Source: a virus
Length of the DNA stretch: 27,771 bases
IMG/VR virus record: IMGVR_UViG_3300020215_000123
Coordinates: 1-27,771 of that record
Reading direction: 5' to 3' (one strand)
Shown: piece by piece, positions 23,851-26,863 of the stretch
How the letters are laid out: each line of letters begins with the position of its first letter
Position numbering within the stretch: the first letter of the stretch is position 1
Position numbers and translations under genes: made by a program
The notes under the pieces: model-generated
Told to the model about the DNA's origin: nothing
The model's database searches: none
Seen by the model: only the letters and a program-made list of their open reading frames with translations

Positions 23851-24204
23851 TTAAGTCAGATAGACTTCACACCGATAGGTAATGTTGGTGTTCAGTGTAG
23901 TTACCAACCGAAGATACTTGTACTTCCGCTTAGAGAAGTTAAGCTGCTTTCCGGTCGCTGTAGCCGTTCGCGTTGTGGTGGCGAACGTGTCGTTCGAGTC
24001 AGTAACGTATCCTAGATCAAACCAGTCACTGCCATCATCAATACGGCCCTGCACCTTCCAGGTGACTGTAGGGCCTGCCCCTGCTGCTTCCACGACAAAC
24101 TGGACGATAGCTGTCTCGTACCCACCGCCGACGTGAACTGCATCATGGGTGTTGTTTCCAGTTGTCCCGGTAGCAGCCAGTGTGTACTTCTCAAAAGTAG
24201 GCAA
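23851..24204 (-). CDS. Small beta-rich virion-type protein, first gene of the late operon
   Basis: This 117-aa protein starts at TTG 24204; GGAGG sits 4-5 nt upstream. It is beta-rich with TVTWKVQGRIDDGSDWFDLG (about 47-66) and LRLVTTLNTNITYRCEVYLT at the end, resembling small phage surface or adaptor beta-sandwich proteins. Its start lies only about 20 nt past the U-tract that closes the upstream RNA element, so the late operon effectively begins here. Family assignment is not possible by eye. Confidence 0.6.
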   Translation of the reverse strand: MPTFEKYTLAATGTTGNNTHDAVHVGGGYETAIVQFVVEAAGAGPTVTWKVQGRIDDGSDWFDLGYVTDSNDTFATTTRTATATGKQLNFSKRKYKYLRLVTTLNTNITYRCEVYLT

Positions 24205-24223
24205 CTATCCTCCAATCGTGGAC

Positions 24224-24253
24224 AAAACAAAAAAGGGTGCGATAGGTCTGCCG
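24224..24253 (-). terminator. U-tract after the closing helix of the structured RNA
   Basis: The minus-strand 3' arm of the 19-bp helix (24235-24253) runs directly into TTTTTTGTTTTG. This has the form of an intrinsic terminator at the end of the tRNA-array transcript, although the pairing arm lies about 265 nt upstream. Readthrough would feed the late operon that starts at 24204. Confidence 0.5.
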
Positions 24254-24414
24254 TCGAACCCCGGTAAGATCGAGGCAGCGCTCAGCCACGCCCTAGGACA
24301 AGGGCGGAGCAGCCACCAATCGCGCCTCCATAAGCGAGAATGCCCACTCAGCGACACGCCCCCGCCGAAGCCACCGTCCCGTCTACTACCGTAGCAACGC
24401 CGCAAGTTGCGACA

Positions 24415-24443
24415 AGACTACAGCCTCGAACGGGGCCGGTCAA
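24415..24443 (-). promoter_or_regulatory. Possible late-operon promoter
   Basis: The minus strand carries TTGACC (24438-24443), a 17-nt spacer and TAGTCT (24415-24420). The -35 matches the sigma-70-type consensus at five of six positions. The -10 fits the looser TANNNT form used by actinobacterial SigA. It would start transcription near 24408 and leave a roughly 200-nt leader. It lies inside the candidate structured RNA, so the match may be coincidental. Confidence 0.35.
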
Positions 24444-24539
24444 TGACCACGGAGAAAGCTACCGCATCCCTGACAACCTCCATCTCGGTTGACGCTTTAC
24501 CGGAGCACGATTGGGTCGGCAGACCCATCGCACCCGAGG

Positions 24540-24611
24540 CTCCAAGGGCAGGATTCGAACCTGCGACACACTGGTTAACAGCCAGTCGTTCTACCACTGA
24601 ACTACCCTGGA
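24540..24611 (-). tRNA. tRNA-Asn(GTT)
   Basis: All four arms fold: acceptor TCCAGGG/CCTTGGA (one G.U), T-arm GCAGG-TTCGAAT-CCTGC, anticodon stem ACTGG/CCAGT and loop CTGTTAA. The 3' end reads G73 then CCT, so CCA is not encoded. It is the last gene of the array and abuts the candidate structured RNA. Confidence 0.95.
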
Positions 24612-24649
24612 ACGATTGTGCGTGTTTAGATGTACGCACCCATCATAGG

Positions 24650-24722
24650 TACCCCGTGAGGGCTTCGAACCCCCGACCTTGAGATTAAGAGTCTCCTGCT
24701 CTACCAGCTGAGCTAACGAGGT
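24650..24722 (-). tRNA. tRNA-Lys(CTT)
   Basis: Acceptor ACCTCGT/ACGGGGT, D-arm GCTC/GAGC, loop CTCTTAA, T-loop TTCGAAG. Pair 27-43 of the anticodon stem is a mismatch. The 3' end is A73 then CCT. It reads AAG. Confidence 0.95.
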
Positions 24723-25849: not shown

Positions 25850-25921
25850 TCTCCGAGGTAGGGGTCGAACCTACGACCTTAGCCTTCGCAGGGCTACGCT
25901 CTTCCACTGAGCTACCCGGAG
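25850..25921 (-). tRNA. tRNA-Arg(GCG)
   Basis: Acceptor CTCCGGG/CTCGGAG, anticodon stem TAGCC/GGCTA with loop CTGCGAA, T-arm GTAGG-TTCGACC-CCTAC. A73 then CCTAT. The GCG anticodon is unusual in bacteria, where CGC is normally read by inosine-modified ACG. The stop codon of the small ORF at 25912-26076 lies inside its 5' end. Confidence 0.94.
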
Positions 25922-26076
25922 ATAGTCTTGTCAAACAATGGCCCCGCTGTCTGCACATGGAAATCCTTGTTGCAGTAATAGGTGCCAATCCACCTGTCTC
26001 GGTGGTCGTAAAACTTGATGAAGATAGGCGGCACGCCGCCCTCTCTGCCTAGGATTTCTTCCTTACGATAGATCAT
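25912..26076 (-). CDS. 54-aa ORF wedged between two tRNA-Arg genes
   Basis: ATG 26076 is preceded by AGGGGAG with a 5-nt gap, and that ribosome site is formed by the 3' acceptor strand of tRNA-Arg(TCG). The stop TAG at 25912-25914 lies at positions 8-10 of tRNA-Arg(GCG). The product reads like a real soluble protein (IFIKFYDHRDRWIGTYYCNK) with aromatic and charged residues well mixed, unlike the Arg/Ser-rich shadow frames elsewhere in the array. No family is recognised. Translation and tRNA maturation of the same RNA would compete, so expression may depend on unprocessed precursor. Confidence 0.6.
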   Translation of the reverse strand: MIYRKEEILGREGGVPPIFIKFYDHRDRWIGTYYCNKDFHVQTAGPLFDKTISG

Positions 26077-26079
26077 AGG

Positions 26080-26548: not shown

Positions 26549-26863
26549 AGGAAAGAAATGACTGTGGTGGCCGGATTTTCCATACCGACAAGGGAAGGAA
26601 ACACTGGTTGGCTCGTTTGTAAGTTAACCAGTTACGACCCTACTCAGCGTTTTCGGGTGTCCCCGACTCCTACCTCCCGCCATCGCGGTGCCAGGAGTGG
26701 AAGCCCTCACGCAGGTTGCGCCCTGGGCCACTCCCATCACGGAGCCGCTGCTGCCTTCACTACCCGGTGTTTCAACGGGTAGCCGTTCTTGCCACACCAC
26801 CCCCATCCGGTAATGCTTCCAGGCCGCTAAACCCTTCAGCCCTTCAGGGGTGTCAATTCTAGG
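26549..26863 (-). ncRNA. Structured non-coding segment inside the tRNA array
   Basis: There are 315 nt with no tRNA between tRNA-Pro and tRNA-Ala. Stems seen: ACTGGTT/AACCAGT (26603-26609 with 26626-26632), ACTCCT/AGGAGT around CCGC-CATC-GCGG (26666-26698), GGAGTGG/CCACTCC around CGCA-GGT-TGCG (26694-26734) and CTACCCG/CGGGTAG (26760-26766 with 26776-26782). The second and third share 26694-26698 and cannot form together. One long frame exists but its composition (Gly/Arg/Ser) and overlap with tRNA-Pro argue against coding. No match to tmRNA, RNase P or 6S RNA was recognised. Strand is assumed from the array. Confidence 0.4.

Follow-up and report, generated by a model that had tools for sequence, protein, structure and literature searches.

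GOLLD RNA (RF02032) is a structured non-coding RNA of phages and prophages that often lies near tRNA islands, with one copy found downstream of a Met-tRNA, and ROOL RNA likewise occurs in phages and prophages, often near tRNA islands; the function of both is unknown (PMC12286853). Why phages have large tRNA arrays, and why RNAs of the GOLLD/ROOL type sit beside them, is an open question. Here, we describe an element found in such a place in an IMG/VR virus record (IMGVR_UViG_3300020215_000123, positions 1-27,771). The whole 27,771-bp stretch that was analyzed is referred to as the window. The element shares with GOLLD its location near phage tRNA genes, as it lies directly after tRNA-Asn, but it measures 308-340 nt across four members, whereas many GOLLD members exceed 800 nt. 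ROOL is also much longer, with many pseudoknots and an octameric nanocage. Since both RNAs are much longer and neither model matched the element at E-values up to 10, the element is filed under neither and would instead form a new family of this general type. The occurrence of a third family in the GOLLD/ROOL setting, related to neither and far shorter than both, suggests that tRNA arrays repeatedly require a companion RNA; moreover, an RNA of 300 nt lends itself directly to structural and deletion studies.

Two other kinds of RNA invite comparison. Bacterial RNase P RNA of class A (RF00010) is structured, similar in size and encoded in the tRNA arrays of the relatives described below; there, however, it is a separate gene, and the window element has no RF00010 match. 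Attenuator and T-box leaders resemble the element in placing a terminator stem and an alternative helix, of which only one can form at a time, shortly upstream of a gene, but the element lacks any T-box or riboswitch match, follows tRNA genes and precedes a gene that varies between members.

Genomic setting of the element

The minus strand of the window carries 26 tRNA genes, from 27448 to 24538, the last of which are Gln, Trp, Lys and Asn, and it reads in the order tRNA array, element and structural gene block. This block encodes a ClpP-like head maturation protease, the terminase large subunit, a P22-like portal and the major capsid protein, whose nearest annotated relatives include actinobacteriophages, all at ≤30% identity. 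The sequence-only reading had placed the element on the minus strand right behind tRNA-Asn, and this position was recovered, with the tRNA ending at 24538 and the closing helix (P1) starting at 24535. On the other side, the gene heading the structural block is preceded by GGAGG at 24209-24213, and its start codon lies about 20 nt past the U tract, so that expression of the structural genes requires either a promoter within the element or read-through. A sigma-70-like promoter was not found in the element region by a scan that does not cover phage-type promoters. The coordinates of the individual features are collected in Table 1.

Table 1. Features of the window element and its immediate neighbours (window positions)
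Feature	Position	Strand	Basis
tRNA-Asn(GUU), last of 26 tRNA genes, immediately upstream of the element	24538..24611	-	
Complete RNA element, beginning right behind tRNA-Asn and including the T-rich tract	24224..24537	-	fold z -6.43; full-length R2 match 24224-24539
P1 closing helix, 5' arm (GGGUGCGAUGGGUCUGCCG)	24517..24535	-	sequence, fold, inverted-repeat search
Alternative 5' hairpin, formed with the P1 5' arm and incompatible with P1	24503..24535	-	-20.6 kcal/mol, z -4.4
P2, 5' arm (CUCCGGUAA), aligns with the GGCAGAG segment of the relatives	24497..24505	-	fold; R2 alignment; A8
3' terminal hairpin (GGC.GC ... GC..GCC), kept in 4/4 elements	24274..24314	-	R1 top window match; helices 12 + 13
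Conserved GAUC between 3' hairpin and P2 (GAUCU in the window, GAUCC in the relatives)	24268..24271	-	
P2, 3' arm (UUACCGGGG), aligns with CUGUCGGGG of L044	24259..24267	-	fold; R2 alignment; A8
P1 closing helix, 3' arm (CGGCAGACCUAUCGCACCC)	24235..24253	-	sequence, fold, inverted-repeat search
U tract U6 G U4 (T6-G-T4), directly after P1, intrinsic-terminator-like	24224..24234	-	sequence
First gene downstream of the element, 117 aa, TTG start, heads the structural block	23851..24204	-	

Structure of the window element

The pairing of the two ends over 19 positions with one G.U, first noticed from the letters, proved to be the top-ranking inverted repeat of the whole window: the P1 arms show 95% complementarity, and the next long pairs reach 79-83%. 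The U tract described directly behind the 3' arm was likewise recovered. On the minus strand, the element folds at -163.9 kcal/mol (z -6.43), with 0 of 100 shuffles as good, whereas the plus-strand fold (-122.8 kcal/mol, z -5.12) is 41 kcal/mol less stable. G.U pairs account for 18 of the 113 predicted pairs. The closing helix contributes most of the fold signal, because the sequence between the P1 arms, folded by itself, shows only mild structure (z -2.59 for the minus and -1.37 for the plus strand). Inward of P1 lies a further helix, P2 (CUCCGGUAA/UUACCGGGG), which was absent from the list of the sequence-only reading. The window also has the 3' hairpin with GAUC(C/U) behind it, located between the U tract and the final tRNA; the GAACUA/CUGGGA internal loop found beside P1 in the relatives is absent from the window element.

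Related elements behind other tRNA arrays

Three uncultured IMG/VR phages found by a TerL profile search (L039, L044 and L050) carry arrays of 17-22 tRNA genes upstream of TerL. In each of them, an element lies directly behind the final tRNA, with the first structural gene beginning a few tens of bases further on. The length range of 308-340 nt refers to the distance from P1 to the U tract, which consists of T8-T9 in the relatives (U8-U9 in the RNA, versus U6 G U4 in the window). The arrays of the relatives end in Gln-Lys-Asn-(Met)-Ile, resembling the end of the window array, and their elements fold with z values of -3.8 (L039), -8.0 (L044) and -5.3 (L050). Each of the four elements sits behind a tRNA array and has its U tract immediately next to P1. 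The gene after the element varies, being the 117-aa gene in the window, a zinc ribbon in L039 and L044, and another gene in L050; therefore, the RNA goes with the array and not with one particular gene.

Several short sequences were also observed in or near the elements of the relatives. The sequence CGAACAyACGTwC is conserved just past the U tract (L044 9417-9435, L050 2341-2360 and L039 3594-3612). A LexA-like sequence, GAACnnnnGTTC, lies just past the U tract in L039, and further such sites are present in L044 (2898, 5638, 5814 and 5941); the window has none of these sequences. Inside two of the elements (L044 9183-9357 and L050 around 2092-2310), an AAGGAG resembling a ribosome-binding site precedes a start codon; the frames opened there comprise 54-69 codons, are unlike each other and represent possible small ORFs.

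Consensus structure, covariation and model searches

Alignment A5 contained the elements of the three relatives without the window. Its consensus comprises the closing helix at the U tract, the GAACUA/CUGGGA internal loop, a long P2 with GGCAGAG/CCUGUC at its inner end, a branched central arm, and a 3' hairpin (GGC.GC..GCGCC) that precedes UGAUCC. The P1 and P2 sequences of the three relatives differ widely with the pairing kept. Compensatory changes were identified in 33 of the 88 pairs, without correction for phylogeny; shuffled alignments gave 14.6 ± 3.0 such pairs, and slid controls never more than 13. Helix 1 shows these changes in 5 of 9 pairs and P2 in 6 of 17. Covariation among homologues, which the sequence-only reading had proposed as a check of its 19-bp helix, is thus observed. 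Adding the window gave 43 compensatory pairs versus 18.9 in shuffles, in an alignment fitted to the model. From a plain MAFFT alignment of the four elements (A8), RNAalifold recovered P1, P2 and the 3' hairpin, with compensatory change in 32 of 61 pairs; the changes of the window in P2 are C-G to U-A and G-C to A-U.

Two covariance models were built without the window, R1 covering the 3' hairpin and the GAUCC segment and R2 the full length; their E-values are rough owing to a short calibration. The best window match of R1 lay at 24261-24327 on the minus strand (13.3 bits, E 0.084). This score is unexceptional in 1 Mb, so R1 backs homology only since the place had been named beforehand. R2 (model positions 1-316) matched the minus strand at 24224-24539 end to end, with 14.4 bits and an E-value of 0.0018 in the window, in agreement with the previously described element in boundaries, strand and position. 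With filters off, the element reached an E-value of 0.0004 on 6.8 kb, and in 1 Mb of phage loci it was the best non-training match (E 0.064). Judged by these comparisons of sequence, the window element is a far-diverged member of the RNA family of L039, L044 and L050 (14.4 bits), its divergence being indicated by the missing GAACUA/CUGGGA loop and a longer unbroken P1. Together, the elements of the relatives, the covariation and the full-length R2 match indicate a small, diverged structured RNA family of four members, tied to phage tRNA arrays and unlisted in Rfam. With Rfam empty and three homologues at hand, these results agree with the earlier proposal of a new, smaller RNA class beside the tRNA array.

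Database searches and distribution

The Rfam covariance scan of the element returned no family by gathering score or at E-values up to 10, and cmscan of 24150-24660 at the same limit yielded only tRNA and chance matches. The models for RNase P, tmRNA, SRP and 6S RNA matched neither the window element nor those of the relatives. No informative match was obtained by blastn when the window element was compared with phage and plasmid records and two of the relatives' elements with phages. The view that the element holds no credible gene also stood, as the four elements have no ORF in common in any one frame.

The loci nearest by capsid (L003 and L005, 69-72%; also from the MCP, portal and TerL search) possess a homologous first structural gene, with no array or element seen there; in L003, other genes abut this homologue, and the L005 record starts only 81 nt before it. 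Of the remaining distinct loci, 32 extend 2.8 kb or more upstream of TerL; none of these has a tRNA array (0-1 tRNA), and R2, applied to most of them, detected no further full-length element, an absence that is weaker evidence because many contigs are fragments. The pattern GCGCCNTGATCCTGTCG was found in 74 stretches of IMG/VR, and beside tRNA arrays only in L039, L044 and L050. A TerL search of genome contigs gave one distant match.

Possible functions of the element

With modest confidence, we favour the reading that the element encodes a stable, terminator-ended and trans-acting non-coding RNA of about 300 nt, derived from the tRNA operon transcript and representing a new phage RNA family. 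An RNA with its own function is favoured because the RNA goes with the tRNA array and its inner helices covary. The tRNA operon transcript would end at the U tract of the element, with the closing helix as the terminator stem, and cleavage behind the last tRNA would free the 5' end. The long helix may protect the RNA against exonucleases at both ends, yielding a stable molecule of about 300 nt that could work alongside the tRNA array during infection as a trans-acting RNA, a role also suspected for GOLLD and ROOL. Points against this reading are that only four members were found, that the window member is far diverged and that many of the loci without an array are fragmentary; a cis-acting leader would also be compatible with the alternative 5' hairpin and with a start codon 20 nt past the U tract. 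A broader proposal, conceivable though short of probable, is that the tRNAs, the RNase P RNA of the relatives and the element form a self-sufficient tRNA module, in which a compact RNA would either act in trans on translation or serve as a 5'-hairpin/terminator switch that times the structural operon.

The main rival, a serious one although we consider it rather unlikely, is an attenuator or switch that would act in cis at the junction of the tRNA and structural operons: P1 and the U tract would stop transcription, and the 5' hairpin, by blocking P1, would permit read-through. It owes this rank to the 5' strand of P1, since that strand can also fold locally into a strong hairpin of its own (-20.6 kcal/mol and z -4.4 for the window). 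When the last 45 nt are left out, the nascent RNA folds the 5' hairpin in all four elements, and P1 replaces it once the RNA is complete. The first gene 20 nt past the U tract, with no sigma-70-like promoter found in the region, is consistent with such a switch; however, the genes downstream differ between members. The 5' hairpin of the relatives (36-44 nt) is at or weakly above shuffles (z -0.6 to -2.0), P1 is favoured by 10-18 kcal/mol in the full-length RNA, and a multi-arm RNA of 300 nt exceeds the needs of a terminator switch. The sequence-only reading had set its new RNA against a known mRNA leader: no T-box or riboswitch family of Rfam matched, but a regulatory leader of the structural operon stays among the rivals.

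Less probable still is a large terminator with a passive interior that would only insulate the tRNA operon from the structural genes. The abutment of P1 and the U tract in 4/4 elements and the mild structure of the window interior alone (z -2.59) accord with it, but the compensatory changes in the interior helices and the 3' hairpin, as well as the conservation of GGCAGAG/GAUCC in the relatives, argue against a passive interior. A DNA-level or mobile element, such as a MITE-like inverted repeat, a packaging site or an attachment site, is very improbable. Its near-perfect terminal inverted repeat, the nearby terminase gene and the close relative L003, in which the homologous first structural gene has no array before it, would suit this explanation; a MITE or DNA site is nevertheless disfavoured by the strand asymmetry, with many conserved G.U pairs that would be C.A on the other strand, and by the covarying inner helices. 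Moreover, the position is always after a tRNA array, and no further copies were found in phage or plasmid records.

RNase P RNA and other RNAs in and near the arrays

RNase P RNA (RF00010) was identified inside the tRNA arrays of the three relatives (L044 7384-7643, L050 425-705 and L039 1410-1666), with no RNase P match in the window. The matches score 50-60 bits, with E-values down to 6e-16, and do not reach the Rfam gathering score of 100, a shortfall probably due to the compactness of these RNAs; their catalytic core looks intact (GAGGAAAGUCCGG ... ACAGAAUCCGGCUUACA). No account of an RNase P RNA encoded by a phage came up in a limited literature search, a weak hint at novelty. Its presence in the arrays of the relatives further fits the notion of a self-contained tRNA module.

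A different structured element with a closing helix GGGGGAUCGUC/GACGAUCCCCC was observed at L060 8686-8951, directly after a lone tRNA-Asn and before the zinc-ribbon gene. It has no R2 or Rfam match, and its 3' part recurs in L182 1-81 at 77%, with paired changes in the hairpin. At the start of L050 (1-29), a match to the 3' end of tmRNA (E 0.0004) is cut by the locus start and may be a tRNA T-arm only. Within the window array, a 313-nt gap between tRNA-Ala and tRNA-Pro (26549-26861, minus strand; z -2.1) gave a weak full-length match to manA RNA (RF01745, 19.8 bits, E 0.045; gathering score 55). Finally, a small ORF (MIYRKEEILGREGG...) lies inside the array at 25913-26077 on the minus strand, between tRNA-Arg(UCG) and tRNA-Arg(GCG).
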